This document shows, piece by piece, positions 12,258 through 33,614 of a stretch of DNA of 64,000 bases (its first letter is position 1; every line of letters starts with the position of its first letter). Under the pieces are notes generated by a model that saw only the letters and a program-made list of their open reading frames with translations, had not been told where the DNA came from and did not search any database. The DNA is from Lysobacter capsici (GTDB lineage: Bacteria > Pseudomonadota > Gammaproteobacteria > Xanthomonadales > Xanthomonadaceae), in contig NZ_CP094357.1 of NCBI RefSeq assembly GCF_014779555.2, positions 1,550,001-1,614,000 on the forward strand, read 5' to 3'. The position numbers were made by a program, and so were the translations under genes.

Positions 12258-15200
12258 ATGAATATCGTCACTACCCGCACCCCGGCCAGCCAGTCGTCAG
12301 CTCGTCGCGACTCCCGTGCTGGATCCCGCATCGCTCGAACCGGGGCGCGTGTATTGCTTGCCGCCATGCTGGCGCTGGCGGCCTTGCCGGCCATGGCGCA
12401 GTTCGCCAATCCCTTGCGCAACACCGCGACGATCACGCCGCCGACGAACGTGACCAACGTCGACACGGCCTGTACCGCGAACGGCGGCACCTTCAATGCG
12501 ACCACCGGCGCCTGCTCGGCGACGGACTCGAACACGCTGGCGGCGGTGTCGGACCTGAGCGTCACCAAGACGGTGTCGAACCCGACGCCGACGGTGGGCA
12601 CCAACGTCACCTTCACCGTGACCGTCGCCAACGCCGGCCCGTCCGCGGCCGTCGCCACCAACGTGACCGACCAGCTGCCGGCCGGTTACACCTTCGTCTC
12701 GGCCACGCCGAGCGTGGGCACCTACAACGCCGGCACCGGCGTGTGGGCGGTGGGCACCCTGGCCTCGGGCGCGAACGCGACCTTGCAGATCGTCGCGACC
12801 GTGCTGCCGACCGGCCCGTACGCGAACACCGCGACCGCGACCTCCAGTTCGACCGACCCGACCCCGGGCAACAACACCGCGACCAGCACGCCGGTGCCGG
12901 TGGCTTCGGCCGATCTGGCCGTGACCAAGACCGCGTCGAGCGCTACGCCGACCGTCGGTACCAACATCACCTTCACCGTGACCGTCAGCAACAACGGTCC
13001 GTCGGCCGCGGCCGGCGTCAACGTCAACGATCAGCTGCCGGCCGGTTACACCTTCGTTTCCGCCACGCCGAGCGTGGGCACCTACAACGCCGGCACCGGC
13101 GTGTGGGCCGTCGGCGCTCTGGCCTCGGGCGCGAACGCGACCCTGCAGATCGTCGCCACCGTGCGCGCCACCGGTCCGTACGCGAACACCGCGACGGCGA
13201 CGTCGACCACCAACGATCCGACCCCGGGCAACAACACCGCGACCAATACCCCGGTGCCGGTGGCTTCGGCCGACCTGGCCGTGACCAAGACCGCGTCGAG
13301 CGCGACCCCGATCATCGGCAGCAATGTCACCTTCACCGTGACCGTCAGCAACAACGGCCCGTCGGCCGCGGCTGGCGTCAACGTCAACGATCAGCTGCCC
13401 GCGGGTTACACCTTCGTCTCGGCCACGCCGAGCGTGGGTACCTATAACGCCGGTACCGGCGTGTGGGCGGTGGGTGCGCTGGCCTCGGGCGCGAACGCGA
13501 CCCTGCAGATCGTCGCCACCGTGCTGCCGACCGGCCCGTATGCGAATACCGCGACCGCGACCTCGACCACCGGCGATCCGACGCCGGGCAACAACACCGC
13601 GACCAATACGCCGGTGCCGGTCGCATCCGCCGATCTGGCGGTGACCAAGACCGCGTCGAGCGCGACCCCGACGGTCGGTACCAACGTCACCTTCACCGTG
13701 ACCGTCAGCAACAACGGTCCTTCGGCGGCGGCCGCGGTCAACGTCAACGATCAGCTGCCGGCCGGTTACACCTTCGTTTCGGCGACGCCGAGCGTGGGTA
13801 CCTACAACGCCGGCACCGGCGTGTGGGCCGTCGGCGGCCTGGCTTCGGGTGCGAACGCGACCTTGCAGATTGTCGCGACCGTATTGCCGACTGGCCCGTA
13901 CGCGAACACCGCGACGGCCACCTCGACCACGAACGATCCGACCCCGGGCAACAACACCGCGACCAATACGCCGGTTCCGGTGGCTTCGGCCGATCTGGCG
14001 GTGACCAAGACCGCGTCGAGCGCGACCCCGATTGTCGGCACCAACGTCACCTTCACCGTGACCGTCAGCAATAACGGCCCGTCGGCCGCGGCTGGCGTCA
14101 ACGTCAACGATCAGCTGCCCGCCGGTTACACCTTCGTTTCGGCCACGCCGAGCGTGGGCACTTATAACGCTGGTACGGGTGTGTGGGCCGTCGGCGGCCT
14201 GGCCTCGGGCGCGAATGCGACCTTGCAGATCGTCGCGACCGTGTTGCCGAACGGACCGTACGCGAACACTGCGACGGCCACCTCGACCACCAACGATCCG
14301 ACGCCGGGCAACAACACCGCGACCAATACGCCGGTTCCGGTGGCTTCGGCCGATCTGGCCGTGACCAAGACCGCGTCGAGCGCTACGCCGACCGTCGGTA
14401 CCAACATCACCTTCACCGTGACCGTCAGCAACAACGGCCCGTCGGCTGCGGCCGGTGTGAACGTCAACGATCAGCTGCCGGCGGGTTACACCTTCGTCTC
14501 GGCCACGCCGAGCGTGGGCACCTACAACGCGGGCACCGGTGTGTGGGCCGTCGGCGGCCTGGCTTCGGGTGCGAACGCGACCTTGCAGATTGTCGCCACC
14601 GTGTTGCCGACCGGCCCGTACGCGAACACCGCGACGGCCACCTCGACCACCAACGATCCGACCCCGGGCAACAACACCGCGACCAATACGCCGACGCCGG
14701 TGGCTTCGGCCGATCTCGTCGTGACCAAGACCGCGTCGAGCGCTACGCCGACCGTCGGTACCAACATCACCTTCACCGTGACCGTCAGCAATAACGGTCC
14801 GTCGGCCGCGGCCGGCGTCAACGTCAACGATCAGCTGCCCGCGGGTTACACCTTCGTTTCGGCGACGCCGAGCGTGGGCACCTATAACGCCGGCACCGGC
14901 GTGTGGGCCGTCGGCGGCCTGGCTTCGGGCGCGAACGCGACCTTGCAGATCGTCGCGACCGTGCTGCCGAATGGTCCGTACGCCAACACCGCGACGGCAA
15001 CCTCGACCACCAACGATCCGACCCCGGGCAACAACACCGCGACCAATACGCCGGTTCCGGTGGCCTCGGCCGACCTGGCCGTGACCAAGACCGCATCGAG
15101 CGCGACCCCGACCGTCGGTACCAACATCACCTTCACCGTGGCCGTCAGCAATAACGGTCCGTCCGCTGCGGCCGGTGTGAACGTCAACGATCAGCTGCCG

Positions 15201-18200
15201 GCCGGTTACACCTTCGTTTCGGCGACGCCGAGCGTGGGTACCTATAACGCCGGCACCGGCGTGTGGGCGGTCGGCGGCCTGGCTTCGGGCGCGAACGCGA
15301 CCTTGCAGATTGTCGCGACCGTATTGCCGACTGGCCCGTACGCGAACACCGCGACGGCGACCTCGACCACCAACGATCCGACCCCGGGCAACAACACCGC
15401 GACCAATACGCCGGTTCCGGTGGCTTCGGCCGATCTGGCCGTGACCAAGACCGCGTCGAGCGCCACGCCGACCGTCGGTACCAACGTCACCTTCACCGTG
15501 ACCGTCAGCAATAACGGCCCGTCGGCCGCGGCTGGCGTCAACGTCAACGATCAGCTGCCGGCCGGTTACACCTTCGTTTCGGCGACGCCGAGCGTGGGTA
15601 CCTATAACGCCGGCACCGGCGTGTGGGCGGTCGGCGGCCTGGCTTCGGGCGCGAACGCGACCTTGCAGATCGTCGCGACCGTGCTGCCGAATGGTCCGTA
15701 CGCGAACACCGCGACGGCCACCTCGACCACCAACGATCCGACCCCGGGCAACAACACCGCGACCAATACGCCGGCTCCGGTGGCTTCGGCCGATCTGGCC
15801 GTGACCAAGACCGCGTCGAGCGCGACGCCGACCGTCGGTACCAACGTCACCTTCACCGTGACTGTCAGCAACAACGGTCCGTCGGCCGCGGCCGGTGTGA
15901 ACGTCAACGATCAGCTGCCGGCGGGTTACACCTTCGTCTCGGCGAATCCGAGCGTGGGCACCTATAACGCTGGCACCGGTGTGTGGGCGGTCGGCGGCTT
16001 GGCTTCGGGCGCGAACGCGACCTTGCAGATCGTCGCGACCGTGCTGCCGACCGGTCCGTACGCGAACACCGCGACGGCCACCTCGACCACCAACGATCCG
16101 ACCCCGGGCAACAACACCGCGACCAATACGCCGACGCCGGTGGCTTCGGCTGATCTGGCCGTCACCAAGACCGCGTCGAGCGCGACCCCGACCGTCGGTA
16201 CCAACATCACCTTCACCGTGACCGTCAGCAACAACGGCCCGTCGGCCGCGGCTGGCGTCAATGTCAACGATCAGCTGCCGGCCGGTTACACCTTCGTCTC
16301 GGCGACGCCGAGCGTGGGTACCTACAACGCCGGCACCGGCGTGTGGGCGGTCGGCGCGCTCGCGTCGGGCGCCAACGCGACCCTGGATATCGTCGCCACC
16401 GTGCTGCCGAACGGCCCGTACGCGAACACCGCGACGGCGACCTCCACCACGAGCGATCCGACCCCGGGCAACAACACCGCGACCAATACGCCGGTTCCGG
16501 TCGCTTCGGCCGACCTGGCGGTGACCAAGACCGCGTCGAGCGCTACGCCGATCGTCGGTACCAACATCACCTTCACCGTGACTGTCAGCAACAACGGTCC
16601 GTCGGCCGCGGCCGGCGTCAACGTCAACGACCAACTGCCCGCGGGTTACACCTTCGTCTCGGCGAATCCGAGCGTGGGCACCTACAACGCCGGCACCGGC
16701 GTGTGGGCGGTTGGCGCGCTGGCTTCGGGCGCCAACGCGACCCTGGATATCGTCGCCACCGTGCTGCCGAACGGTCCGTACGCGAACACCGCGACGGCGA
16801 CCTCGACCACCAGCGATCCGACTCCGGGCAACAACACCGCGACCAATACGCCGGTTCCGGTGGCATCCGCCGACCTGGCGGTGACCAAGACCGCGTCGAG
16901 CGCTACGCCGATCGTCGGTACCAACGTCACCTTCACCGTGACCGTCAGCAACAACGGCCCTTCGGCCGCGGCCGGCGTCAACGTCAACGATCAGCTGCCG
17001 GCCGGTTATACCTTCGTCTCGGCGAATCCGAGCGTGGGCACCTACAACGCCGGCACCGGCGTGTGGGCGGTCGGCGCGCTGGCTTCGGGCGCCAACGCGA
17101 CCCTGGATATCGTCGCCACCGTGCTGCCGAACGGCCCGTACGCGAACACCGCGACGGCGACCTCGACCACGAACGATCCGACCCCGGGCAACAACACCGC
17201 GACCAACACGCCGACGCCGGTCGCTTCGGCCGATCTGGCCGTGACCAAGACCGTGTCGAACCCGAATCCGCCGATCGGCTCGACCATCACCTTCACCGTC
17301 ACCGTTTCCAACGCCGGTCCGTCGGCCGCGGCGGACGTGGTCGTCAACGACGCGCTGCCCAGCGGTTACACCTTCGTCTCGGCCACGCCGAGCGCGGGCA
17401 CCTACAACGCCGGCACCGGCGTGTGGACCGTCGGTGCGCTCGCGGTCGGCGTCAGCCAGACCCTGACCGTCAGCGCGGTCGTGCTCGAGACCGGCAGCTA
17501 CGCCAATACCGCCACCGGCACCTCGACCACCAACGATCCGACCCCGGGCAACAACACCTCGACCTCGACGCCGACCCCGGTCGCCAACCCGAGCCTGTCG
17601 CTGGTCAAGGCCGCGCCGACCAACGCCGACAACGACGGCAGCGGCACCGTGACCCTGGGCGATGTGCTGACCTACACCGTCACCGCGACCAACACCGGCA
17701 ACATCACCCTCACCAACGTGGTGGTCAGCGACGCCCAGCTGACTCCGGCCAGCCAGACCTGCCCGAGCGTCCCGGTCGGCGGCACCTGCGTGCTGACCGG
17801 CACCCACACCGTCACCTTGAGCGAAGTCACCGCGGGCGAGATCGTCAACAACGCCAGCGTGGTCTCGACCGAAGTCACCACCCCGGTGCCGGCGACCCGC
17901 ACCACCCCGACCGCCCGTCGCCCGATCGTCGCCGTCGCCGACAGCGGCGCGGTGACCAGTGGCGCCAGTGGCGGCACCGCCGTGCCCAACGTGCTGGTCA
18001 ACGACACCTTGAACGGCCAGCCCGCGACCACCGCGACGGTGGCGATCAGCCAGGTCTCCAGCAGCAACCCGAACATCACCATCGATCCGCTCACCGGCGC
18101 GGTCAACGTCGCCGCGGGCACCGCGGCGGGCAATTACACCCTGCGTTATCGGATCTGCGAGATCGCCGATCCGACCAATTGCTCGGAAGCCGACGTCGCT

Positions 18201-21200
18201 GTGCAGGTGGGCGCCGCCGCGATCCTGGCGGTGGACGACACCGGCACGCCGGTCAACGGCAGCACCGGCGGCACCGCGGTGGCGGACGTGCGCGGCAACG
18301 ATCTGCTCAACGGCGCTCCGGTCGTCGCGGCCGACGTCACCCTGACCCAGGTTTCGACCACCAACCCGGGCGTCACCCTCAACACGACCAGCGGCGCGGT
18401 GACTGTCGCCCCGGGCACCCCGGCCGGCACGTACACCCTCGTGTATCAGCTGTGCGAAGTGCTGAACCCGACCAACTGCGACGACGCCACCGTGACGGTC
18501 ACCGTCAACGCGGCGCCGATCGTGGCCAACGACGACACCGGCACGCCGGTCAACGGCCGCACCGGCGGTACCGCGGTGCCCGATGTGCGCGTCAACGACA
18601 CGCTCAACGGCAACCCGGTCGTCGCGGCTGACGTGACTCTGAGTCAGGTCTCGACCACCAACCCGGGCGTCACCCTCAACACGACCACCGGTGCGGTGAC
18701 TGTCGCCGCGGGCACTCCGGCCGGCACGTACACGCTCGTGTACCGCCTGTGCGAAGTGCTGAACCCGACCAACTGCGACGACGCCACCGTGACGGTGACG
18801 GTCGACGCGGCGGCGATCGTGGCGAACAACGACACCGGTACGCCGGTCAACGGCAGCACCGGCGGCACCGCCGTGCCGAACGTGCTGGTCAACGACACCC
18901 TCGATGGCAACCCGGTCACCCCGGCTGACGTCACCCTGACCCAGGTTTCGACCACCAATCCGGGCGTCACCCTCAACACCACCACCGGTGCGGTGAACGT
19001 TGCCCCGGGTACTCCGGCCGGCACCTACACGCTGACCTACCAGATCTGCGAACTGCTCAACCCGACCAACTGCGACGACGCCACCGTGACCGTGACGGTC
19101 GATGCGGCGCCGATCGTGGCCAATGACGACACCGGCGCTCCGGTCAACGGTCGCACCGGCGGTACCGCGGTGGCGGACGTGCGGGTCAACGACACGCTCA
19201 ACGGCAACCCGGTCGTCGCGGCCGACGTCACCCTGAGCCAGGTCTCGACCACCAACCCGGGCGTGACCCTCAACACCACCACCGGTGCGGTGACTGTCGC
19301 CGCGGGCACCCCGGCGGGTACGTACACGCTGGTGTATCGCCTGTGCGAAGTGCTGAACCCGACCAACTGCGACGACGCCACCGTGACGGTGACGGTCGAC
19401 GCGGCGGCGATCGTGGCGAACAACGACACGGGTACGCCGGTCAACGGCAGCACCGGCGGCACTGCGGTGCCCAACGTGCTGGTCAACGACACGCTGGACG
19501 GCAACCCGGTCACCCCGGCCGATGTCACCCTGACCCAGGTTTCGACCACCAACCCGGGCGTCACCCTCAACACGACCACCGGTGCAGTGAATGTCGCTCC
19601 GGGCACCCCGGCCGGCACCTACACGCTGACCTACCAGATCTGCGAACTGCTCAACCCGACCAACTGCGACGACGCGACTGTGACTGTCACCGTCGATGCG
19701 GCGCCGATCGTGGCCAACGACGACACCGGCACGCCGGTCAACGGTCGCACCGGCGGTACCGCGGTGCCGGACGTGCGGGTCAACGACACGCTCAACGGCA
19801 ACCCGGTCGTCGCGGCCGACGTCACCCTGAGCCAGGTCTCGACCACCAACCCGGGCGTCACCCTCAACACCACCACCGGTGCAGTGACTGTCGCCGCAGG
19901 CACCCCGGCGGGCACGTACACGCTCGTGTACCGCCTGTGCGAAGTGCTGAACCCGACCAACTGCGACGACGCCACCGTGACCGTGACGGTCGACGCGGCG
20001 GCGATCGTGGCGAACAACGACACCGGTACGCCGGTCAACGGCAGCACCGGCGGCACCGCGGTGCCGAACGTGCTGGTCAACGACACCCTCGATGGCAACC
20101 CGGTCACCCCGGCTGACGTCACCCTGACCCAGGTTTCGACCACCAATCCGGGCGTCACCCTCAACACGACCACGGGTGCAGTGAACGTCGCTCCGGGTAC
20201 TCCGGCCGGCACCTACACGCTGACCTACCAGATCTGCGAACTGCTGAACCCGACCAACTGCGACGACGCCACCGTGACGGTCACCGTCGATGCGGCGCCG
20301 ATCGTGGCCAACGACGACACCGGCACGCCGGTCAACGGTCGCACCGGCGGTACCGCGGTGGCGGACGTGCGGGTCAACGACACGCTCAATGGCAACCCGG
20401 TCGTCGCGGCCGACGTCACCCTGAGTCAGGTCTCGACCACCAACCCGGGCGTCACCCTCAACACCACCACCGGTGCGGTGAATGTCGCCGCGGGCACCCC
20501 GGCGGGTACGTACACGCTCGTGTACCGCCTGTGCGAAGTGCTGAACCCGAGCAACTGCGACGACGCCACCGTGACGGTGACGGTCGACGCGGCGGCGATC
20601 GTGGCGAACAACGACACGGGTACGCCGGTCAACGGCAGCACCGGCGGTACCGCGGTGCCGAACGTGCTGGTCAACGACACCCTCGATGGCAACCCGGTCA
20701 CCCCGGCTGACGTCACCCTGACCCAGGTCTCGACCACCAACCCGGGCGTCACCCTCAACACCACCACCGGTGCGGTGAACGTTGCCCCAGGTACTCCGGC
20801 CGGCACCTACACGCTGACCTACCAGATCTGCGAACTGCTCAACCCGACCAACTGCGACGACGCGACTGTGACTGTCACCGTCGATGCGGCGCCGATCGTG
20901 GCCAACGACGACACCGGCACGCCGGTTAACGGCCGTACCGGCGGTACCGCGGTGGCGGACGTGCGGGTCAACGACACGCTCAACGGCAACCCGGTCGTTG
21001 CGGCCGACGTGACCCTGAGCCAGGTCTCGACCACCAACCCGGGCGTGACCCTCAACACCACCACCGGTGCGGTGACTGTCGCCGCAGGCACCCCGGCGGG
21101 CACGTACACGCTCGTGTACAGCCTGTGCGAAGTGCTCAACCCGACCAACTGCGACGACGCCACCGTGACGGTGACGGTCGACGCGGCGGCGATCGTGGCG

Positions 21201-24200
21201 AACAACGACACCGGTACCCCGGTCAACGGCAGCACCGGCGGCACTGCGGTGCCCAACGTGCTGGTCAACGACACGCTGGACGGCAACCCGGTCACCCCGG
21301 CCGATGTCACCCTGACCCAGGTTTCGACCACCAACCCGGGCGTCACCCTCAACACGACCACGGGTGCAGTGAATGTCGCTCCGGGCACCCCGGCCGGCAC
21401 CTACACGCTGACCTACCAGATCTGCGAACTGCTGAACCCGACCAACTGCGACGACGCGACTGTGACTGTCACCGTCGATGCGGCGCCGATCGTGGCCAAC
21501 GACGACACCGGCACGCCGGTCAACGGACGCACCGGCGGTACCGCGGTGGCGGACGTGCGCGTCAACGACACGCTCAACGGCAACCCGGTCGTCGCGGCCG
21601 ACGTGACCCTGAGCCAGGTCTCGACCACCAACCCGGGCGTCACCCTCAACACCACCACCGGTGCGGTGACTGTCGCCGCAGGCACCCCGGCGGGTACGTA
21701 CACGCTGGTGTACCGCCTGTGCGAAGTGCTGAACCCGACCAACTGCGACGACGCCACCGTGACCGTGACCGTCGACGCCGCGCCGATCGTGGCGGCGGAC
21801 GACACCGGTACCCCGGTCAACGGCAGCACCGGCGGCATCGCGGTGACCGACGTGCGCGGCAACGACACCCTCAACGGTGTGGTCGTTACTCCGGCCGAGG
21901 TGACCCTGAGCCAAGTCTCGTCGACCAACCCGGGCATCACCCTCAACACCGGCACCGGTGCGGTCGATGTCGCGCCGAACACGCCGGCGGGTACGTACAC
22001 CCTGGTGTACCGCCTGTGCGAAGTGCTGAACCCGAGCAACTGCGACGACGCCACCGTGACCGTCACGGTCAATGCGGCGCCGATCGTGGCCAACGACGAC
22101 ACCGGTACCCCGGTCAACGGCAGCACCGGCGGCATCGCGGTGACCGACGTGCGCGGCAACGACACCCTCAACGGTGTGGCCGTTACCCCGGCCGAAGTGA
22201 CCCTGAGCCAGGTCTCGTCGACCAACCCGGGCATCACCCTCGACACCGGCACCGGCGCGGTCAACGTCGCCGCAGGCACCCCGGCGGGCACGTACACGCT
22301 GGTGTACCGCCTGTGCGAAGTGCTGAACCCGAGCAACTGCGACGACGCCACCGTGACCGTCACGGTCAATGCGGCGCCGATCGTGGCCAACGACGACACC
22401 GGCGCTCCGGTCAACGGCCGCACCGGCGGCACCGCGGTGGCGGACGTGCGCGTCAACGACACCCTCAACGGCAACCCGGTCGTTCCGGCCGAGGTCACCC
22501 TGAGCCAGGTTTCGACCACCAACCCGGGCATCACCCTCAACACCGGCACCGGTGCGGTCGATGTCGCGCCGAACACGCCGGCGGGTACGTACACCCTGGT
22601 GTACCGCCTGTGCGAAGTGCTGAACCCGAGCAACTGCGACGACGCCACCGTGACCGTGACGGTCAACGCCGCGCCGATCGTGGCGACCAACGACACCGGC
22701 GCGCCGGTGGACGGTCGCAGCGGCGGTGTGGCGGTGCCCAACGTGCTGGTCAACGACACCCTCAACGGTAATCCGGTGACGCCGGCCGACGTGGCCCTGA
22801 CCCAGGTCTCGACCAGCAACCCCGGCGTGACCCTGGACCCGGCCACCGGCGCGGTGAACGTCGCGCCCGGCACGCCGGCGGGCAGTTACACGCTGACCTA
22901 CCAGATCTGCGAACTGCTCAACCCGAGCAACTGCTCGACCGCCACGGTCAGCGTCACCGTCAATGCCACCGTGATCGATGCGGTGGACGACGTGGTCGCC
23001 ACCCCGGTCAACGGCAACACCGGCGGCACCAACGTGATCAACGTGCTCGCCAACGACACCCTCGGCGGCAGCGCGGTGAATCCGGTCGACGTCAACGTCA
23101 CCCCGGTCAGCAGCGGTCCGCTGACGGTCAAGGCCGACGGCGGCGTGGATGTCGCGCCGGGCACCCCGGCCGGCACCTACACCGTCACCTACCAGCTGTG
23201 CGAGGTGTTGAACCCGAGCAACTGCGACACCGCCACGGTGACCATCACCGTGACCGCGCCGGCCATCACCGCGACCGACGATCCGGCCGGCGGCACCGGC
23301 GTCACCCCGCAGAACACCCCGGTGACGACCAACGTGATCGCCAACGACACGCTCAACGGCGCGCCGATCGATCCGAACCTGGTGACGATCACGGTCAGCA
23401 CCGATCCGAGCAACGGCACCGTGGTGGTCAACACCGACGGCACCATCACCTACACGCCGCGCGCCAACTTCAGCGGCACCGACAGCTACGTCTACACGAT
23501 TTGCGAGAAGCTCAATCCGACCAACTGCGCGACCGCCACGGTCACCGTCACGGTGCAGCCGAACACGGTCACCGCGACGCCGGATACCGCCCAGACCAAC
23601 CAGCAGACGCCGGTGACGATCAATGTGATCGGCAACGACAGCGTGACCGGCGCGCCGCTGGATCCGGGCTCGCTGACCATCGCCAACCCGCCGGCCAACG
23701 GCACGGTCACCTGCGCGGCCGGTTCGTGCACCTACACGCCGAACCAGTTCTTCGCCGGCACCGACACGTTCACCTACCGCGTCTGCGACACCTCGTCGCC
23801 GACCCCGGTGTGCGCGACCGCTTCGGTGACGATCACGGTGCTCGCCAATGCGCCGGTGCTGCGTCTGGTCAAGACCTCGGCGACGCGCGAGGTGAAGATC
23901 GGCGATCTGGTCCGCTACACCGTGCAGGTCGAGAACGTCGGCGATTCGCCCGCGGTCAACGCGACCCTGGTCGACATCCCGCCGGCCGGCTTCACCTTCG
24001 TCGACAACTCGCTGACGGTGGACGACGACAACAAGAACGGCGTGATCGCCAGCGCCAACCCGCTGCGCATCACCGGCATCGATGTCGGCATCGGCGGCAA
24101 GGCCACGGTCAGCTACTTCCTGCGCGTCGGCGCCGGCGTCGGCAAGGGCGTGCACAAGAACCAGGTCGCCGGCTACGACAGCAACGGCACCAAGATCAGT

Positions 24201-25586
24201 AACGATGCGACCGCCGAAGTGGTGATGGCGGGCGATCCGCTGCTCGAGGACAGCCTGATCGTCGGCAGCGTGTTCGACGACCGCGACAGCGACGGCTGGC
24301 AGGATCCGGCCAAGGCCACCGGCGTGAAGGTGCAGGGCGGCTTCGCTCCGGGTGCCTACGTCGCCGGTTCGACCACGGTCGACCGCGGCCAGGGCCCGGT
24401 CGCCGAGCCCGACGCCAGCGCGCCGCTGCTGCACGGCATCGCGCTGGGCCGGATCGACGGCCGCAGCTCCGACGCGGTCTCGCCCGAGCAGCATCAACTG
24501 GTCGTGCGCCAGACGCTCAGCGCGCTGGAGTTCGCCGACGACTTCGTGCTGACCACCGACGAAGGCACCACGGTGCGGATGGACGCGGCCGGCAAGACCA
24601 CGGTCGAGCGCAGCCGCGGCGACGCCGCCAAGGGCCTGACCGCGCAGGATCTGCAGGTCAGCCGCCAGGTCAGCCAGGGCGCGAGCGGTTACGTCGTGTC
24701 GTACACGATCCGCAACAACGGGGTCGAGGAACGCGGCATCCCGGGCGTGCGCATCGCCTCGGTCGAAGGCTTGATCATGGAAACCGACGCCTACGGCCGT
24801 TACCACCTGGAAGGCATCGAAGGCGGCAACTCGTCGCGGGGACGCAACTTCATCCTCAAGGTCGACGCCGCCACCTTGCCGCCGGGCACGGTGTTCACCA
24901 CCGAAAACCCGCGCGTGCGCCGCATCACCCAGGGCGTGCCGACCCGCTTCGACTTCGGCGTCAAGCTGCCGCCGGGCGAGATCGGCAGCAGCAAGTCGAA
25001 CACCGACGTCGAACTGGGCGAGGTGTTCTTCGAAGCCGGCAGCGCCAAGGTCAAGACCGACTACACGCCGATGTTCCAGGACATCGCCGGCAAGCTGCGC
25101 GACGCCGGCGGCGGCAGCGTCACCGTCACCGCGCAGGCCGAAGAGGAGGCGCTCGCCTTCGCCCGCGCCCGCGCCGTGCAGACCGAACTGATGCGACAGC
25201 TGGAATCCGATCCGGAACTGGCGCGCAAGGTGCAGGTCGACGTGGTCGCCGGTGTCGACGCGAGCCAGGCGCTGGTCAGCCTGGATCCGGCGATCCGCTT
25301 GGGCGAGGTGTTGTTCGACACCGACCAGGCCACGATCAAGCCGCAGTACAAGCCCTTGATCAGCGAAATCGCCAAGGCGCTCAACCAACAGGGCAGTGGG
25401 GCGGTCGGTGTGATCGGCCGCGCCGACAAACGCGGCGCGGCCGCCTACAACGTGCAACTGGGTCTACGCCGTGCCAAGGCCGTGTTCGAAGCGATCTCGG
25501 CCGAACTCAAGCCCGAGGTGAGGCAGAAAGTGCGAGTTGACATCACTGACGACACCCAGGCGCCAGTCGGCGTGGGCAACCGCTGA
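12258..25586 (+). CDS. Giant exported DUF11/Ig-like repeat protein with C-terminal OmpA-like modules
   Basis: A 4,442-aa protein. A long signal peptide (twin-Arg-containing n-region, hydrophobic VLLAAMLALAALPAMA, cleavage before QFANP near residue 48) sends it to the periplasm. Then come 14 DUF11 repeats of 120 aa (99-1778), a divergent DUF11-like unit with DNDGSGTVTLGDVLTY, a divergent Ig-like unit, 16 units of 99 aa (1993-3576), a degenerate unit, two bacterial Ig-like domains with TYTPRANFSGTDSY (about 3673-3865), another DUF11, a carboxypeptidase-regulatory-like segment, and two OmpA-like modules beginning GEVFFEAGSAKV and GEVLFDTDQATIK. The last keeps the D and R pattern (GRADKRG, LRRAKAV) that binds peptidoglycan. 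The ATG at 12258 was chosen for the signal peptide; no clear Shine-Dalgarno precedes it. Role inferred: cell-wall-anchored surface fibre or adhesin. Confidence 0.85.
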   Translation: MNIVTTRTPASQSSARRDSRAGSRIARTGARVLLAAMLALAALPAMAQFANPLRNTATITPPTNVTNVDTACTANGGTFNATTGACSATDSNTLAAVSDLSVTKTVSNPTPTVGTNVTFTVTVANAGPSAAVATNVTDQLPAGYTFVSATPSVGTYNAGTGVWAVGTLASGANATLQIVATVLPTGPYANTATATSSSTDPTPGNNTATSTPVPVASADLAVTKTASSATPTVGTNITFTVTVSNNGPSAAAGVNVNDQLPAGYTFVSATPSVGTYNAGTGVWAVGALASGANATLQIVATVRATGPYANTATATSTTNDPTPGNNTATNTPVPVASADLAVTKTASSATPIIGSNVTFTVTVSNNGPSAAAGVNVNDQLPAGYTFVSATPSVGTYNAGTGVWAVGALASGANATLQIVATVLPTGPYANTATATSTTGDPTPGNNTATNTPVPVASADLAVTKTASSATPTVGTNVTFTVTVSNNGPSAAAAVNVNDQLPAGYTFVSATPSVGTYNAGTGVWAVGGLASGANATLQIVATVLPTGPYANTATATSTTNDPTPGNNTATNTPVPVASADLAVTKTASSATPIVGTNVTFTVTVSNNGPSAAAGVNVNDQLPAGYTFVSATPSVGTYNAGTGVWAVGGLASGANATLQIVATVLPNGPYANTATATSTTNDPTPGNNTATNTPVPVASADLAVTKTASSATPTVGTNITFTVTVSNNGPSAAAGVNVNDQLPAGYTFVSATPSVGTYNAGTGVWAVGGLASGANATLQIVATVLPTGPYANTATATSTTNDPTPGNNTATNTPTPVASADLVVTKTASSATPTVGTNITFTVTVSNNGPSAAAGVNVNDQLPAGYTFVSATPSVGTYNAGTGVWAVGGLASGANATLQIVATVLPNGPYANTATATSTTNDPTPGNNTATNTPVPVASADLAVTKTASSATPTVGTNITFTVAVSNNGPSAAAGVNVNDQLPAGYTFVSATPSVGTYNAGTGVWAVGGLASGANATLQIVATVLPTGPYANTATATSTTNDPTPGNNTATNTPVPVASADLAVTKTASSATPTVGTNVTFTVTVSNNGPSAAAGVNVNDQLPAGYTFVSATPSVGTYNAGTGVWAVGGLASGANATLQIVATVLPNGPYANTATATSTTNDPTPGNNTATNTPAPVASADLAVTKTASSATPTVGTNVTFTVTVSNNGPSAAAGVNVNDQLPAGYTFVSANPSVGTYNAGTGVWAVGGLASGANATLQIVATVLPTGPYANTATATSTTNDPTPGNNTATNTPTPVASADLAVTKTASSATPTVGTNITFTVTVSNNGPSAAAGVNVNDQLPAGYTFVSATPSVGTYNAGTGVWAVGALASGANATLDIVATVLPNGPYANTATATSTTSDPTPGNNTATNTPVPVASADLAVTKTASSATPIVGTNITFTVTVSNNGPSAAAGVNVNDQLPAGYTFVSANPSVGTYNAGTGVWAVGALASGANATLDIVATVLPNGPYANTATATSTTSDPTPGNNTATNTPVPVASADLAVTKTASSATPIVGTNVTFTVTVSNNGPSAAAGVNVNDQLPAGYTFVSANPSVGTYNAGTGVWAVGALASGANATLDIVATVLPNGPYANTATATSTTNDPTPGNNTATNTPTPVASADLAVTKTVSNPNPPIGSTITFTVTVSNAGPSAAADVVVNDALPSGYTFVSATPSAGTYNAGTGVWTVGALAVGVSQTLTVSAVVLETGSYANTATGTSTTNDPTPGNNTSTSTPTPVANPSLSLVKAAPTNADNDGSGTVTLGDVLTYTVTATNTGNITLTNVVVSDAQLTPASQTCPSVPVGGTCVLTGTHTVTLSEVTAGEIVNNASVVSTEVTTPVPATRTTPTARRPIVAVADSGAVTSGASGGTAVPNVLVNDTLNGQPATTATVAISQVSSSNPNITIDPLTGAVNVAAGTAAGNYTLRYRICEIADPTNCSEADVAVQVGAAAILAVDDTGTPVNGSTGGTAVADVRGNDLLNGAPVVAADVTLTQVSTTNPGVTLNTTSGAVTVAPGTPAGTYTLVYQLCEVLNPTNCDDATVTVTVNAAPIVANDDTGTPVNGRTGGTAVPDVRVNDTLNGNPVVAADVTLSQVSTTNPGVTLNTTTGAVTVAAGTPAGTYTLVYRLCEVLNPTNCDDATVTVTVDAAAIVANNDTGTPVNGSTGGTAVPNVLVNDTLDGNPVTPADVTLTQVSTTNPGVTLNTTTGAVNVAPGTPAGTYTLTYQICELLNPTNCDDATVTVTVDAAPIVANDDTGAPVNGRTGGTAVADVRVNDTLNGNPVVAADVTLSQVSTTNPGVTLNTTTGAVTVAAGTPAGTYTLVYRLCEVLNPTNCDDATVTVTVDAAAIVANNDTGTPVNGSTGGTAVPNVLVNDTLDGNPVTPADVTLTQVSTTNPGVTLNTTTGAVNVAPGTPAGTYTLTYQICELLNPTNCDDATVTVTVDAAPIVANDDTGTPVNGRTGGTAVPDVRVNDTLNGNPVVAADVTLSQVSTTNPGVTLNTTTGAVTVAAGTPAGTYTLVYRLCEVLNPTNCDDATVTVTVDAAAIVANNDTGTPVNGSTGGTAVPNVLVNDTLDGNPVTPADVTLTQVSTTNPGVTLNTTTGAVNVAPGTPAGTYTLTYQICELLNPTNCDDATVTVTVDAAPIVANDDTGTPVNGRTGGTAVADVRVNDTLNGNPVVAADVTLSQVSTTNPGVTLNTTTGAVNVAAGTPAGTYTLVYRLCEVLNPSNCDDATVTVTVDAAAIVANNDTGTPVNGSTGGTAVPNVLVNDTLDGNPVTPADVTLTQVSTTNPGVTLNTTTGAVNVAPGTPAGTYTLTYQICELLNPTNCDDATVTVTVDAAPIVANDDTGTPVNGRTGGTAVADVRVNDTLNGNPVVAADVTLSQVSTTNPGVTLNTTTGAVTVAAGTPAGTYTLVYSLCEVLNPTNCDDATVTVTVDAAAIVANNDTGTPVNGSTGGTAVPNVLVNDTLDGNPVTPADVTLTQVSTTNPGVTLNTTTGAVNVAPGTPAGTYTLTYQICELLNPTNCDDATVTVTVDAAPIVANDDTGTPVNGRTGGTAVADVRVNDTLNGNPVVAADVTLSQVSTTNPGVTLNTTTGAVTVAAGTPAGTYTLVYRLCEVLNPTNCDDATVTVTVDAAPIVAADDTGTPVNGSTGGIAVTDVRGNDTLNGVVVTPAEVTLSQVSSTNPGITLNTGTGAVDVAPNTPAGTYTLVYRLCEVLNPSNCDDATVTVTVNAAPIVANDDTGTPVNGSTGGIAVTDVRGNDTLNGVAVTPAEVTLSQVSSTNPGITLDTGTGAVNVAAGTPAGTYTLVYRLCEVLNPSNCDDATVTVTVNAAPIVANDDTGAPVNGRTGGTAVADVRVNDTLNGNPVVPAEVTLSQVSTTNPGITLNTGTGAVDVAPNTPAGTYTLVYRLCEVLNPSNCDDATVTVTVNAAPIVATNDTGAPVDGRSGGVAVPNVLVNDTLNGNPVTPADVALTQVSTSNPGVTLDPATGAVNVAPGTPAGSYTLTYQICELLNPSNCSTATVSVTVNATVIDAVDDVVATPVNGNTGGTNVINVLANDTLGGSAVNPVDVNVTPVSSGPLTVKADGGVDVAPGTPAGTYTVTYQLCEVLNPSNCDTATVTITVTAPAITATDDPAGGTGVTPQNTPVTTNVIANDTLNGAPIDPNLVTITVSTDPSNGTVVVNTDGTITYTPRANFSGTDSYVYTICEKLNPTNCATATVTVTVQPNTVTATPDTAQTNQQTPVTINVIGNDSVTGAPLDPGSLTIANPPANGTVTCAAGSCTYTPNQFFAGTDTFTYRVCDTSSPTPVCATASVTITVLANAPVLRLVKTSATREVKIGDLVRYTVQVENVGDSPAVNATLVDIPPAGFTFVDNSLTVDDDNKNGVIASANPLRITGIDVGIGGKATVSYFLRVGAGVGKGVHKNQVAGYDSNGTKISNDATAEVVMAGDPLLEDSLIVGSVFDDRDSDGWQDPAKATGVKVQGGFAPGAYVAGSTTVDRGQGPVAEPDASAPLLHGIALGRIDGRSSDAVSPEQHQLVVRQTLSALEFADDFVLTTDEGTTVRMDAAGKTTVERSRGDAAKGLTAQDLQVSRQVSQGASGYVVSYTIRNNGVEERGIPGVRIASVEGLIMETDAYGRYHLEGIEGGNSSRGRNFILKVDAATLPPGTVFTTENPRVRRITQGVPTRFDFGVKLPPGEIGSSKSNTDVELGEVFFEAGSAKVKTDYTPMFQDIAGKLRDAGGGSVTVTAQAEEEALAFARARAVQTELMRQLESDPELARKVQVDVVAGVDASQALVSLDPAIRLGEVLFDTDQATIKPQYKPLISEIAKALNQQGSGAVGVIGRADKRGAAAYNVQLGLRRAKAVFEAISAELKPEVRQKVRVDITDDTQAPVGVGNR
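12552..17591 (+). repeat. Tandem array of 14 DUF11 repeats, 360-nt unit
   Basis: Each unit begins DLAVTKTASSATP and ends PVPVASA, exactly 120 codons, with no insertion or deletion across 5,040 nt. Units 2-13 are nearly identical in DNA; units 1 and 14 are more diverged (TKTVSNP). Differences among the inner units are mostly synonymous or confined to a few positions (TVGTN/IVGTN, SATPS/SANPS, LQIV/LDIV). Confidence 0.97.
18234..22985 (+). repeat. Tandem array of 16 Ig-like repeats, 297-nt unit with 594-nt alternation
   Basis: Units of exactly 99 codons start DDTGTPVNG or NDTGTPVNG and contain NPTNCDDATVTVTV. In the central part two types alternate: one with NGRTGG, VVAADVTLSQ and YRLCEVL, the other with NGSTGG, VTPADVTLTQ and YQICELL, giving a 594-nt higher-order repeat copied at least four times. 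Flanking units at about 17935-18233 and 22986-23270 are degenerate relatives. Confidence 0.96.
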
Positions 25587-25596
25587 GGACATGACC

Positions 25597-28500
25597 ATGA
25601 AGATGAAGATGAAGCTTCTGGACATGACCCTGATCGGCCTGCTCTCGGCCGGTGCAGCCACGCCCGCGTACGCGCAGAAAGCCGGCGCCAACAACCCGAC
25701 GCAGAACGCGCCGGCCCGCGACACCGGCCGGCGCACCACGTCGGTCCCGGTGGACCTGAGCTCGCTCGACAAGCCCCAGCCGCAGACCGAGGCGCTCGAA
25801 CCGGTGCCGCGCGCGAAGTGCGAAGGCAGCGAGTGCCGCAGCGACGAGGGCCTGCTGTTCCGCGTGCGCACGCGCGGCGAAGACAAGCCGGTGGCCGAAG
25901 GCGACGACGCCAACGCGCTGCAGGCCAATCGCCGCGTCGACGTGGTGCGCGAAAACCTGACCCCGGGCGCGGCCAAGATCGCCGGCAAGTTCCAGATCGA
26001 CCTGCCCAACGGCGGCGTGATCTGGGCCACCGAAGATCCCACCCTCGGCCCGCCGGTGCTCAACGTCCAGGCCGGTTCGATCGCGCCGTTCGAGAACGGC
26101 CGCATCACCAAGCCGCTGCGTTTCCACGGTTACACCAACTACGCGTCGTTCATCGACAAGTTGCAGGTCACCGTGTACCGCGGCAGCGACACCGACCTGG
26201 TCACGCCGCTGGCCACCATCGACCTGCCGGTCGACAACGTGTCCGAACAGGAGTGGGACGGCGTCCTGCCGTCCAACATCAACCTGCTGGCCGGCGACGA
26301 GTTGATCTACATCGCCCGCGCCTACGGCAAGGACGGCGCGTTCGACGAAATCAATCCGCAGCGCATCCAACTGGTCAAGCCCGAGGAATACGAACGCGGC
26401 GTACAGATCCAGCGCGAGGAAGTGCAGCGCACCCTCGGCCAGGCGATCGACGATCGCGGCGCGCAGGACATCGAGATCACCAGCTCGATCTACGGCACCA
26501 ACGCGATCCGCATCCAGAACATCCCGGTGTACGGCTCGCGCGTGCGCATCTACGGCCGCGACATCCCGCGCGATGCGCAGCTCACGATCAACGACCAGAC
26601 CTTCCCGATCGACCTGGAGCGCAAGTTCGCCGCCGAGTTCCTCGAACCGGTCGGCCCGCACACCTACGCGGTCAAGATCAAGAACCGCGGCGGCGGCGAG
26701 CTGGAGAAGAACCTCGACGTCAACGTGACCGGCAAGTACAGCTTCCTGGTCGCGCTGGCCGACGTGACCCTGTCGGAGAACAACGTCAGCGGCAACATCG
26801 AACCGCTGGCCGCCGGCGACAACGGCCGCTACGACGACAGCTTCATCAGCGAAGGCCGCCTGGCGTTTTATTTGAAGGGGAAGGTGCAGGGCAAGTACCT
26901 GATCACCGCCCAGGCCGACACCCACGAAAACGAAATCAAGCGGCTGTTCAACGGCTTCTTCGACGCGCAGGCGCAGGACATCTTCCGCCGCCTCGACCCG
27001 AACCTGTACTACCCGGTGTACGGCGACGATTCCAACACCTACCGCGACGTCGACACCCAGGGCAAGCTGTACCTGCGCGTGGACTGGGACCAGAACCAGG
27101 CGCTGTGGGGCAACTTCAACACCGGCATGACCGGCACCGAGTACGCCCAGTACAACCGCTCGCTGTACGGCGCGGCCTTGAACTGGCGCAGCCGCAACAC
27201 CACCGTGCTCGGCGACCCGAAGAGCGAACTCAAGCTGTTCGGCTCCGAAGCGCAGAGCGCGCTGGGCCACACCGAATTCCTCGGCACCGGCAACAGCCTG
27301 TACATGCTGCGCCACACCGATATCCTGCCGGGTTCGGAAAAAGTCACGGTCGAAATCCGCGACGTCAGCACCGGCCGGGTCGAATCGCGCGTCGATTTGA
27401 AGCGCGGCGCCGACTACGAAATCAACGACATGCAGGGCCGCATCCTGCTCAGCCGGCCGTTGTCGCAGATCACCCGCGAGAACGTGCGCACCTTGACCCG
27501 CGACACCCCGCTGGACGGCTACACCCAGCGCCTGCTGGTGGATTACGAATACGTCCCGGCCGGATTCCAGGTCGACGACGTCAGCGCCGGTTTCCGCGGC
27601 AAGCAATGGTTCGGCGATCACTTCGCCGTCGGCGGCACCTACGTCGACGAAAACCGCAGCGGCGACGACTACAGCCTCAAGGGCGTCGACCTGACCCTGC
27701 AGGCCGGTCGCGGCACCTACCTGAAACTGGAAAAGACCCGCACCGAATCCACCGCCGCGCCGATCTGGTACTCGACCAACGGCGGCGTCGACTTCACCCG
27801 CATCAACGCGATCACCGGCGCCCGCCGTGGCGACGCCGACAAGGTCGAAGCGCGCGCCAACTTCAAGGAACTGGGCTGGACCCAGCTCGACTGGAGCGTG
27901 GGCGCGTGGTGGCGCGACATCGATCAGGGCTTCTCGATCTCGCGTTACGACAACGGCGAAGCGGTGCAGGAATATGGCGCCGAGTTCCTGGGTTACTTCA
28001 CCGAGAACTTCAGCCTGTTCGGCCGCCACACCCGTCGCGAACGCGGCGATGAAGCGCTCGAACAGAGCCAGCTGACCGCCGACTGGCGCATCACCAACGA
28101 CGACCAGCTCGGCGCCGAACTGCGCCGCGTGCGCGAGGAGCGCAACGCCGCGTCGTTGAGCCCGGACATCGACGCGATGCTGTTCGCGCTGAGCTACCGT
28201 CACCGCATCGGCTCGACCCTCGAGCTGTACGCGACCGGCCAATACACCCTCGATGACGACGGCGGCAAGTACGACCGCAACGACCTGCTGACCGTGGGCG
28301 CGCGCTACCTGTTCGGCGACCGTTCCAGCGTCGGCGCCGAAGTCAGCAGCGGCAGCCGCGGCGAAGCCGGCAAGGTCGACGCCGAGTACCGCCTGAGCAC
28401 CGACCATACCCTGTACGGCGCCTACACCTTCAGCACCGACAGCACGCAGCGCGATCCGCTGTTCGACAGCGCCTTGCAGACCGGCTGGACCATCGGCCAG

Positions 28501-29397
28501 CGCTGGCGTTTGAACAACCAGACCAACCTGTACAACGAAAGCCAGTTCCTCAAGGACCCGCGCGATTCCAGCGAAGGGATCATGCACACCTTCGGCATGG
28601 ATTTTTATCCGGCCGAAGGCTGGAACCTGGGCTTCGCGGTGATGGACGGCGACCTGGAAGCGGCGACCGGCCACGTCGACCGCCGCGCCTACAGCCTCAG
28701 CGGCGGACGCGTCGATCCCAACACCGACTGGTCGAGCAAGATCGAATACCGCAAGGACAGCGGCGCCGAGCGTCGCGAAGCCTGGGTCACCAGCAACCGC
28801 TTGTTCTACAAGGTCAACGAAGACTGGCGCATCGCCGCGCGCTTCCTGTACTCCGACATCAAGGACGAAATCGACGTCAGCCGCGGCGCCAAGACCGTCG
28901 AAGGCAACCTCGGCTTCGCCTACCGCCCGCACGACAGCTCGCGCTGGGCCGCGTTCGGCAAGTACGTGTACCTCTACGACCTGGCCACCATCGGCCAGGA
29001 CGGCGGCAACCAGTACGACCAGCGCTCGCAGGTGCTGTCGTTCGAAGGCATCTACCGCATCGACGACAAGTGGGAACTGGGCGGCAAGGCCGCGAGCCGT
29101 TGGGGCGACTACCGCATGGGCCGCGGCACCGGCCTGTGGCTGGACAGCCGCGCCGACTTCCTCGCCGGCCAGGTGCGCTACCACCTGATCGCCAAATGGG
29201 ACGCCCTGGCCGAATACCGCTGGCTGGCGGTCAAGGACGGCGGCGACAAGCGCGGCTGGCTGATCGGCGTGGACCGTCAGATCGGCGACAACTTCAAGGT
29301 CGGCGTGGGCTACAACTTCACCGACTTCAGCGACGATTTGACCGATCTGGAATACGACAACAAGGGCTGGTTCTTGAATCTGGCGGGTTACTACTGA
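25597..29397 (+). CDS. Large outer-membrane beta-barrel protein, partner of the giant repeat protein
   Basis: A 1,266-aa exported protein. A short KMKMK n-region and hydrophobic segment end at TPAYA, with cleavage before QK near residue 25. Residues about 30-400 look like periplasmic beta-sandwich domains (for example INDQTFPIDLERKFAAEF). From about 420 to the end, amphipathic strands alternate with charged turns, and the chain ends in LNLAGYY, an aromatic C-terminus typical of BAM-assembled barrels. The ATG at 25597 lies 7 nt after GAGGA; ATG 25591 is too close. It starts 10 nt after the giant gene and is followed by a strong terminator, so the two form an operon. A role in anchoring or exposing the partner is inference. 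No plug domain or TonB box was recognised. Confidence 0.8.
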   Translation: MKMKMKLLDMTLIGLLSAGAATPAYAQKAGANNPTQNAPARDTGRRTTSVPVDLSSLDKPQPQTEALEPVPRAKCEGSECRSDEGLLFRVRTRGEDKPVAEGDDANALQANRRVDVVRENLTPGAAKIAGKFQIDLPNGGVIWATEDPTLGPPVLNVQAGSIAPFENGRITKPLRFHGYTNYASFIDKLQVTVYRGSDTDLVTPLATIDLPVDNVSEQEWDGVLPSNINLLAGDELIYIARAYGKDGAFDEINPQRIQLVKPEEYERGVQIQREEVQRTLGQAIDDRGAQDIEITSSIYGTNAIRIQNIPVYGSRVRIYGRDIPRDAQLTINDQTFPIDLERKFAAEFLEPVGPHTYAVKIKNRGGGELEKNLDVNVTGKYSFLVALADVTLSENNVSGNIEPLAAGDNGRYDDSFISEGRLAFYLKGKVQGKYLITAQADTHENEIKRLFNGFFDAQAQDIFRRLDPNLYYPVYGDDSNTYRDVDTQGKLYLRVDWDQNQALWGNFNTGMTGTEYAQYNRSLYGAALNWRSRNTTVLGDPKSELKLFGSEAQSALGHTEFLGTGNSLYMLRHTDILPGSEKVTVEIRDVSTGRVESRVDLKRGADYEINDMQGRILLSRPLSQITRENVRTLTRDTPLDGYTQRLLVDYEYVPAGFQVDDVSAGFRGKQWFGDHFAVGGTYVDENRSGDDYSLKGVDLTLQAGRGTYLKLEKTRTESTAAPIWYSTNGGVDFTRINAITGARRGDADKVEARANFKELGWTQLDWSVGAWWRDIDQGFSISRYDNGEAVQEYGAEFLGYFTENFSLFGRHTRRERGDEALEQSQLTADWRITNDDQLGAELRRVREERNAASLSPDIDAMLFALSYRHRIGSTLELYATGQYTLDDDGGKYDRNDLLTVGARYLFGDRSSVGAEVSSGSRGEAGKVDAEYRLSTDHTLYGAYTFSTDSTQRDPLFDSALQTGWTIGQRWRLNNQTNLYNESQFLKDPRDSSEGIMHTFGMDFYPAEGWNLGFAVMDGDLEAATGHVDRRAYSLSGGRVDPNTDWSSKIEYRKDSGAERREAWVTSNRLFYKVNEDWRIAARFLYSDIKDEIDVSRGAKTVEGNLGFAYRPHDSSRWAAFGKYVYLYDLATIGQDGGNQYDQRSQVLSFEGIYRIDDKWELGGKAASRWGDYRMGRGTGLWLDSRADFLAGQVRYHLIAKWDALAEYRWLAVKDGGDKRGWLIGVDRQIGDNFKVGVGYNFTDFSDDLTDLEYDNKGWFLNLAGYY

Positions 29398-32210: not shown

Positions 32211-32375
32211 CTAGAAACTCCTTACACAGCGGCCCCACCGCCGAAATACCGGTGGATTTTTTGCGCCTACGTTTTGGGCGCACACTCGGCGCGTTTCCGC
32301 GTCGGGAGGGCGGCTAATACAACACCCGCAAGGGGAATACACCCGCCGTCTGTGTACGGTTTCTAGCCTCCCGAC
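32211..32375 (+). other. Nested inverted repeats upstream of the XAC0095-like gene
   Basis: An imperfect inverted repeat of 22-23 nt has arms at 32211-32233 (starting CTAGAAACTCC) and 32345-32366 (ending ACGGTTTCTAG). Inside and overlapping it is a perfect 9-bp stem GTCGGGAGG (32301-32309) with CCTCCCGAC (32367-32375), so the two stems compete for the right arm region. Smaller stems (CCGT/ACGG, CCCGC/GCGGC) lie within. It resembles a structured RNA or the ends of a small cassette. Apart from this the 364-nt gap 32069-32432 shows no gene. Confidence 0.4.
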
Positions 32376-32432
32376 ATCCCGCCTGCGACTTCGCGCAGCG
32401 CGGACCACCGGTCCATGGAGCGGAGCGCGCCT

Positions 32433-33023: not shown

Positions 33024-33476
33024 CTAAACAATAATTTTTAAATGATCAGAAATGCATTTAATTATAAAGCTATCAAAAGAAATCCAGGTTATTTGAGGTG
33101 AGGTGTCGCCTTCGATATATTGCCATATCGGTGGGTCGTTATGGCCGTTGACGACAAAGAAGTTAAATTCGTAACCTTGATGCATCGAGAATATAAATGA
33201 TTCATCGGGGCTCGGGAGTTTTGTGGAATTTTCTTTTAACAGAGCTTCCGCTTCGCCGCGCAAAGATTCTAAGTGTGGGTAGAAAATATCTGTGCCACGC
33301 AGAAAATCTCCGGCGCCCCATCCCATGGCCAGCAGAAATTCCCTGTACGAATCGGGCAGTGCGTATCCAATGCGCTTCTCCAATGCGGATACTTCAGTCG
33401 AGCTACATCCTCTAATTTGCAATGGAGTGCATATCTTCTCTCTTGTGAGCAGAGAGATTAATTCATTCTTTTTCAT
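33024..33476 (-). CDS. SMI1/KNR4 (SUKH) family immunity-like protein
   Basis: A 150-aa protein with the SUKH pattern: an early helix ending GCSSTEVSALEKRIGYALPD, then YREFLLAMGWGAGDFLRGTD and the later MHQGYEFNFFVV and PPIWQYIEGD, followed by a C-terminal helix around SFDSFIIKCI. SUKH proteins are known immunity proteins of bacterial polymorphic toxins. The gene is strikingly AT-rich for this chromosome, a sign of recent transfer. It lies on the same strand as the RHS gene but is separated from it by the RAYT insertion, so it is probably an orphan immunity gene for a toxin tip now lost or carried by competitors. Confidence 0.88.
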   Translation of the reverse strand: MKKNELISLLTREKICTPLQIRGCSSTEVSALEKRIGYALPDSYREFLLAMGWGAGDFLRGTDIFYPHLESLRGEAEALLKENSTKLPSPDESFIFSMHQGYEFNFFVVNGHNDPPIWQYIEGDTSPQITWISFDSFIIKCISDHLKIIV

Positions 33477-33614
33477 CGTGTTTTCGACAATGCATGGGGC
33501 AAAGAGAGAGATAGAGAGCAGAGAGCACTTTCCTTAGTCCCGTATCCGTAATGGACCGATGGTGGTCGGCGGCATGCTAAAGCAGGCTGTGTGTCTCCAG
33601 CAACGAAGCACAGT

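Follow-up and report, generated by a model that had tools for sequence, protein, structure and literature searches.

A giant repeat protein of Lysobacter capsici and its conserved barrel-like partner: a candidate type V-like pair with a peptidoglycan anchor

Few answers are known to the question of how giant Gram-negative proteins cross the outer membrane, and this question is raised by a locus of the soil bacterium Lysobacter capsici that we analyzed within a window of 64,000 nucleotides (contig NZ_CP094357.1, positions 1,550,001 to 1,614,000; coordinates below are those of the window). The original prediction described one exported chain of 4,442 aa with two repeat arrays and a C-terminal OmpA-like anchor. 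As proposed, the open frame 12258-25586 (+) translates as a single 4,442-aa chain without any internal stop, and a Sec-type signal with an AMA/Q site, read by eye, is present at its start. The domain search suggested as a check matched all the expected families, with DUF11 (E=0), the Ig-like Big_9 (7.7e-23) and OmpA (9.7e-11) in Pfam and TIGR01451 (3.2e-211) in NCBIfam. However, the span considered at that time leaves out the most important feature, the partner gene at 25597-29397, which begins ten bases further on. The features of the two genes are the following.

12258..25586, + strand: giant repeat protein, 4,442 aa (open frame, Pfam/NCBIfam)
12258..12398, + strand: aa 1-47, signal peptide of the Sec type, read by eye with a cut at AMA/Q
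12549..17588, + strand: 14 DUF11 units of 120 aa, aa 98-1777 (TRF, register alignment)
17586..17885, + strand: DUF7507-like bridging domain with 2 Cys, aa 1777-1876 (Pfam)
17934..22982, + strand: 17 Ig-like units of 99 aa, aa 1893-3575, mostly alternating A/B, with a C-x7-C pair in each
22983..23852, + strand: three degenerate Ig-like units (Big_9 / Cadherin_4), aa 3576-3865 (Pfam)
23859..24206, + strand: divergent last (15th) DUF11-like domain, aa 3868-3983
24702..24977, + strand: conserved SdrD-B-like core module, aa 4149-4240
25023..25217, + strand: degenerate OmpA-like domain, aa 4256-4320
25308..25556, + strand: OmpA-like domain with motif GRADKRGAAAYNVQLGLRRAKAV, aa 4351-4433
25585..25589, + strand: GAGGA that shares bases with the giant's stop codon and is likely the ribosome site of the partner
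25597..29397, + strand: partner outer-membrane protein, 1,266 aa, C-terminus GWFLNLAGYY
26842..29394, + strand: putative transmembrane barrel of about 850 aa (weak Pfam, C-terminal aromatic signal, strand pattern)

With 14 tandem and one divergent DUF11 domain, the giant has many such domains in one chain, as in the GhpA/GhlA filament proteins, and no tip domain was recognised at its N-terminus. The single DUF11 and Ig units had no convincing relative in the PDB. The last DUF11-like domain was weakly matched by a solved 123-aa structure named 'OmpA-like domain-containing protein' (PDB 9ifr_A; E 0.0085 by profile and 0.072 with the single sequence), which may be the DUF11 domain of a related protein. 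No consensus promoter was found on the + strand between 11200 and 12400, and a megablast search against plasmid DNA gave no match.

Around the two genes, the window holds several other frames. Upstream, a single frame (3064-5829, +) combines an amino acid kinase with ACT domains and an Orn/DAP/Arg decarboxylase domain, and is probably an aspartate kinase joined to a diaminopimelate decarboxylase. Between 10000 and 36000, the sole Rfam match was sRNA-Xcc1, downstream of the pair (32301-32383, +; 78.4 bits against a cut-off of 53), with none inside the pair. It is followed by a Y1 transposase of the IS200-like Pfam family (33591-34379, +), which lies between the pair and a gene for a 4,883-aa RHS-repeat protein (35166-49817, -) with four He_PIG Ig-like domains, then small frames. 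One of these small frames (33024-33476) is of the SUKH/SMI1-KNR4 immunity type, and the RHS locus looks like a polymorphic toxin locus.

We compared the units of the two arrays at the DNA and the protein level. TRF reported a DUF11 array at 12560-17564 (period 360, 13.9 copies, 90% match, 0% indel) and an Ig-like array at 18234-22961 (period 297, 15.9 copies, 85% match, 0% indel), in agreement with the 14 DUF11 and 16 Ig-like repeats with zero indels counted before. The Ig-like unit is less uniform than had been described, most of this array being an alternation of two units, A and B (198 aa together). As for internal homogenisation, it was observed in the protein, where DUF11 units 2-13 are 93-98% identical and the five Ig B units 100% identical, but not in the DNA, where the mean dS between units was 0.29 for DUF11 (12 units), 0.15 for Ig A (6 units) and 0.22 for Ig B (5 units). 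Over all pairs of the same units, dN/dS was 0.09 for DUF11, 0.07 for Ig A and 0 for Ig B. In the five Ig B units (18825-21497), 28 of 99 codons vary, all of them synonymously and with all 28 bases in third position. These low dN/dS values and the synonymous-only variation of the B units indicate that the units are held by selection on the protein and not by recent gene conversion, an explanation that we dropped because the unit DNA differs while the protein is identical. Each repeat is under strong selection as a folded unit. The partner gene of this genome differs from those of its close relatives G001 and G003 by a dS of 0.10, below the between-unit dS (0.15-0.29).

The arrays themselves differ between relatives. 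In G001 the orthologue carries a single TRF array (360 nt, 25 copies), and in G007 it carries 17 copies of 321 nt, so that arrays of 360, 321 and 297 nt are found among orthologues. The passengers of two fused members, described below, contain Calx-beta and Ca_tandemer repeats, and the passenger repeat kinds found here are known from surface-adhesin stalks. Giant frames in relatives reach 6,222 aa. In Root690 (L044/L087), the array is split over several frames, which could come from an assembly error in the repeats as well as from real decay, and this case was left out of the array comparison. Since the length of the array and the type of repeat change quickly from species to species while the core and the barrel are kept, these results suggest a fixed mount for an interchangeable stalk.

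We analyzed the end of the giant chain, where OmpA-like modules had been proposed in the plural. The last domain was confirmed (aa 4352-4413, PF00691; 42.3 bits against a cut-off of 27.2 in Pfam), whereas the preceding one is degenerate and stayed below the Pfam cut-off (aa 4256-4320; 12 bits with a home-built profile). In the PDB, the profile of the last domain matched Pal (1.8e-8). The Asp and Arg of the OmpA-like motif are the residues that bind peptidoglycan, and both are kept (GRADKRG...RRAKAV in the giant, GHADERG...RRANAV in Pal). In our alignment A2, D530, R544 and R545 were invariant in 5 of 5 rows, and judging from the motif the last OmpA-like domain probably binds peptidoglycan. An OmpA-family search of the whole genome gave 14 matches, two of which are on giant frames, the present one and a 4,967-aa frame at 5.62 Mb. 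An intact motif is also what would be expected if the repeats were periplasmic and the giant served as a tether or spacer along the cell wall, held by OmpA and the barrel and stabilising the envelope. The disulfide-type cysteine pairs of the chain would suit the oxidising periplasm in the same way.

The stop codon of the giant (25584-25586) is followed by the partner ATG at 25597, ten bases on, and the two genes are likely translationally coupled. By eye, the partner starts with the signal peptide MKMKMKLLDMTLIGLLSAGAATPAYA/Q, and its C-terminus (GWFLNLAGYY) is of the outer-membrane type. Pfam reported only DUF2490, OMP_b-brl, DUF7435 and NtrZ on the window partner, all below cut-off, NCBIfam gave nothing at E up to 1 and the PDB nothing at E up to 10. 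Among nine partner members, weak DUF2490 matches were found in eight and weak OMP_b-brl matches in four, and the best Pfam outer-membrane match was Porin_4 in one member (6.4e-7). Partner profiles searched against the PDB matched only an antibody light chain, SYG-2 or, weakly, YadA. A home-made strand count (threshold 0.24) gave 32 segments in the last 851 aa of the partner and 19 in the last 580 aa of LptD, whose barrel has 26 strands; little weight is given to this count, which does not discriminate, the DUF11 repeats scoring about as densely as the partner (3.3 against 3.8 per 100 aa). Overall, these features point to a protein that is probably of the barrel type, with a large outer-membrane barrel and a beta-sandwich N-terminal part; 28-38 strands would be a crude guess.

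In existing annotation, members of the partner family are named hypothetical, OmpA family or TonB-dependent receptor. The latter name was given in 7 of 20 plasmid records, among the matches listed (24 matched), and would fit a TonB-dependent or other uptake channel with the giant as an accessory. One of these names belongs to the partner of Sulfitobacter guttiformis, an annotation to which Pfam gave no support. We searched for Plug and TonB receptor families and obtained no Pfam match in the window partner, in eight other members or in this Sulfitobacter member, which makes an uptake channel very improbable.

To evaluate how far the two proteins belong together, we searched for both in other genomes. 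With the partner protein as query, a match was obtained in 27 of 60 genomes, the own genome included, and in 20 of 20 of the genus, in one case as fragments only. A partner profile of 13 rows (E up to 1e-10) matched 53 of 369 genomes of a class sample and 58 of 398 genomes of a phylum sample, the two samples overlapping, and the spread is patchy, 316 of the 369 class genomes being without a barrel match. The giant chain was followed by its SdrD-B-like core module (aa 4149-4240), which was found in 51 of the 369 class genomes. Both barrel and core were present in 48 of these genomes, the barrel only in 5, the core only in 3 and neither in 313 (Fisher p 1e-50, not corrected for phylogeny). At 57 of 69 core places, the core is followed on its strand by a barrel at no more than 6 kb, and the other 12 had no barrel match on the same contig.

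At 33 of the 57 adjacent places, core and barrel are part of one uninterrupted open frame. Fusions were counted from open-frame lengths, and G077, G335 and G359, which have separate frames, were left out. Fusion is commonest in the smaller members, since many of the 33 are about 1,400-2,300 aa long without a giant array. The domain order in the fused chains is repeats, core, OmpA where present, and barrel. The longest fused frame, of 11,777 aa (L102+L103, G170:C2, in a stretch of 53% GC), follows this order, its 15 DUF11 hits preceding the core, the OmpA domain and the barrel; no signal peptide is visible in it, and its N-terminus may be incomplete. Gene order is reversed in Hydromonas (L090), with the partner before the giant.

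The pair occurs in Alpha-, Beta- and Gammaproteobacteria, plasmids included. The partner was found on contigs of Lysobacter, Thermomonas, Hydromonas, Formosimonas and Stenotrophomonas (8 loci) and in 24 plasmid records. On a plasmid of Croceibacterium atlanticum, a product of about 2,037 aa named 'OmpA family protein' is followed by the partner 14 bases later, and other plasmid members come from Eleftheria terrae, Vibrio campbellii and Sinorhizobium meliloti, where the genes overlap. In Sulfitobacter guttiformis, a 6,195-aa giant DUF11 gene takes up 35% of the 53-kb plasmid pSG53 (L129). The L. capsici genome itself holds a second pair (G000:C1:5619438-5638093; L009 and L063), formed by the 4,967-aa frame and a partner 60% identical to that of the window. 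This paralogous giant has two arrays, of 300 nt in 10.1 copies and of 369 nt in 21.9 copies.

Taken together, these results show that the giant and the barrel-like protein form a conserved pair and one functional unit. The giant had appeared without any route in sight, and this no longer holds with a conserved barrel-like partner ten bases away and often fused. The repeats could also be surface-exposed by another route, such as type II secretion, with the barrel only anchoring the chain or having another role, and an invasin-like adhesin of Acinetobacter has been reported as a type II substrate, according to the available part of the source (PMC9245377). The fusion of barrel and core in more than half of the adjacent places and the occurrence of the pair across three classes and on plasmids both speak for the barrel being the active partner, and we regard such a separate route as improbable. 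In the accessible part of the open-licence PMC literature we found no description of the pair, which is weak evidence.

We examined the position of the OmpA domain relative to the two partners. In 77 loci, it was found at the giant C-terminus in 12, at the barrel N-terminus in 19, at the fusion junction in 14 and on a separate neighbouring gene in 6; none was found in 25 (16 two-gene and 9 fused), and one locus had a barrel without core. In 36 further stretches, mostly from same-genus and same-family orthologues, OmpA was on the giant C-terminus in 29, none was found in 1 and 6 had no core in the stretch. Of the 84 OmpA domains scoring at least 20 in the 77 loci, 14 are encoded by separate frames and 70 by frames that hold the core or the barrel. 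All the in-chain domains, 70 of 70 in these loci and 29 of 29 in the 36 stretches, are located at the core/barrel junction, although many giants are incomplete in the stretches fetched, so that an OmpA domain deep within the array may have escaped notice. Two OmpA domains of the 36 stretches are in frames without a recognised core. Among ten separate OmpA frames, nine immediately follow the barrel and share its strand, three of them behind fused chains counted as having none. In Vibrio campbellii (L127:17349-18260), the gene directly behind the barrel encodes a lipoprotein with two OmpA domains (lipobox read by eye). The absence of a detected OmpA in 25 of 77 loci indicates that the anchor is not universal. 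In the chains examined, the OmpA domain was seen on one or the other partner, between the two or next to them, but at no other place, which suggests that the giant C-terminus and the barrel N-terminus are neighbours at the peptidoglycan.

The restriction of in-chain OmpA to the junction beside the barrel would also fit the periplasmic tether. However, the periplasm is far narrower than the length of a chain of about 35 domains and 4,442 aa, let alone those of the longest relatives, even if such a chain could lie flat. In addition, near relatives differ in the kind and number of their repeats, an exchange more readily expected of a surface stalk than of a structural spacer. Elsewhere, a giant DUF11 protein forms external filaments: in the available part of its description, GhlA of Litorilinea, with 49 DUF11 domains, was identified in fractions with surface hook filaments of about 180 nm (PMC13319060). 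On these grounds we consider it unlikely that the repeats stay in the periplasm.

We therefore favour, with modest confidence, a type V-like pair in which the giant is the passenger and the barrel-like protein its dedicated partner, the repeats being displayed through the barrel as a fibre. In Lysobacter the two are encoded by separate genes, while other bacteria have them fused in a single chain. Both proteins would be exported by Sec, as suggested by the signal peptides read by eye, and the partner would insert in the outer membrane, as its C-terminal signal predicts. The core and OmpA of the giant would sit against the barrel on its periplasmic side, as the domain shuffling suggests, and bind peptidoglycan through the motif. 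The N-terminal repeats would be threaded through the barrel to the outside, where they would fold into a fibre estimated very roughly at 130 nm, a value obtained by applying the GhlA spacing (49 domains for about 180 nm) to 35 domains. Passage through the barrel and surface display are thus the presumed steps of this scheme. The 46 cysteines of the giant, which come in pairs, are many for a chain threaded unfolded and speak against surface exposure. Lysobacter is a genus known for predation, and the fibre would plausibly serve for attachment to surfaces, kin or prey. In the portion of a review that was available, type 5 passengers are said to be poor in cysteines, which lie near one another where they occur (PMC8151025); the C-x7-C spacing in 19 of 23 pairs fits this remark in its second half, but 46 is not few.

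The gene pair is conserved, widely spread and apparently unnamed, with natural fusions, and the position of its anchor serves as an internal map of the topology. Should the repeats be exported by the barrel, the pair would add a type V-like route and give a function to an unclassified barrel family. If the repeats stay inside, it would represent an unexpected giant envelope tether.

We compared the pair with known secretion and adhesin systems. For types Va, Vb and Ve, the statement that no known route accounts for the crossing was upheld, their parts being unmatched. Searched in Pfam at E up to 10, where HMMER filters drop most matches above about 0.1, the nine partner members had no type Vb partner domains (POTRA, ShlB/FhaC barrel) and no T11SS / Slam DUF560, and the N-terminal TPS domain was absent from the 16 families reported on the giant. 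The type Va barrel PF03797 was absent in the nine partner members and in three fused chains (the latter at E up to 0.01), and the type Ve family PF11924 gave no match in the giant or the nine partner members. Weak YadA-anchor (type Vc) matches were obtained in one of the nine partner members (0.0082) and in a Sinorhizobium member (0.14), and profile A3 weakly matched YadA 2lme (E 0.0024). A lead to 'DUF11' as T11SS cargo was false, the prefix matches being mostly DUF1194.

The type Va barrel is small and 12-stranded. The fused members are like type Va in having an N-terminal passenger and a C-terminal barrel region in one chain, with a signal peptide visible in some of them (L113, for example), and unlike it in the size of the barrel region (about 850 aa) and in the OmpA and core between passenger and barrel. 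As in type Vb (TpsA/TpsB, FhaB/FhaC), two adjacent genes encode a very large repetitive exoprotein and a dedicated outer-membrane partner. Some TpsA proteins also retain a C-terminal part in the periplasm, as stated in the available portion of PMC8151025. In contrast with type Vb, the conserved module is at the exoprotein C-terminus, fused single chains are common and OmpA is located at the junction. Type Ve proteins (intimin/YeeJ) have Ig-like stalks and, in some cases, a periplasmic domain that interacts with peptidoglycan, according to the accessible part of PMC6555100. The pair shares both traits, but the barrel is N-terminal in type Ve and the order of the fused chains is the opposite.

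The giant chain of many DUF11 domains is like the GhpA/GhlA grappling hooks, which are found in other phyla (Litorilinea belongs to the Chloroflexota and Aureispira to the Bacteroidota), GhpA being reportedly the subject of work by Lien et al. in 2024. GhlA is described as having no signal peptide, which suggests that it uses another route, and the available part of its description mentions neither a barrel partner nor an OmpA anchor (PMC13319060); a signal peptide is present here. By analogy, the Lysobacter fibres could be a counterpart of these hooks. In AtaA-TpgA, a long surface fibre has its membrane part in complex with a separate peptidoglycan-binding protein, as far as the accessible part of PMC13082670 states. 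Adjacent OmpA genes, such as that of the Vibrio lipoprotein, are alike in this respect, whereas the barrel and the passenger are others and the anchor is on either partner, between them or separate. It is a tentative idea, which we hold as possible and somewhat doubtful, that these pairs form a separate class of outer-membrane protein secretion, widespread in Pseudomonadota, in which an unclassified barrel of about 850 residues, as a partner or fused, displays DUF11/Ig-like fibres with a mobile peptidoglycan anchor. Overall, the pair would best be compared to a type V system with a built-in anchor, with a logic comparable to that of AtaA-TpgA, and we file it in none of these systems.
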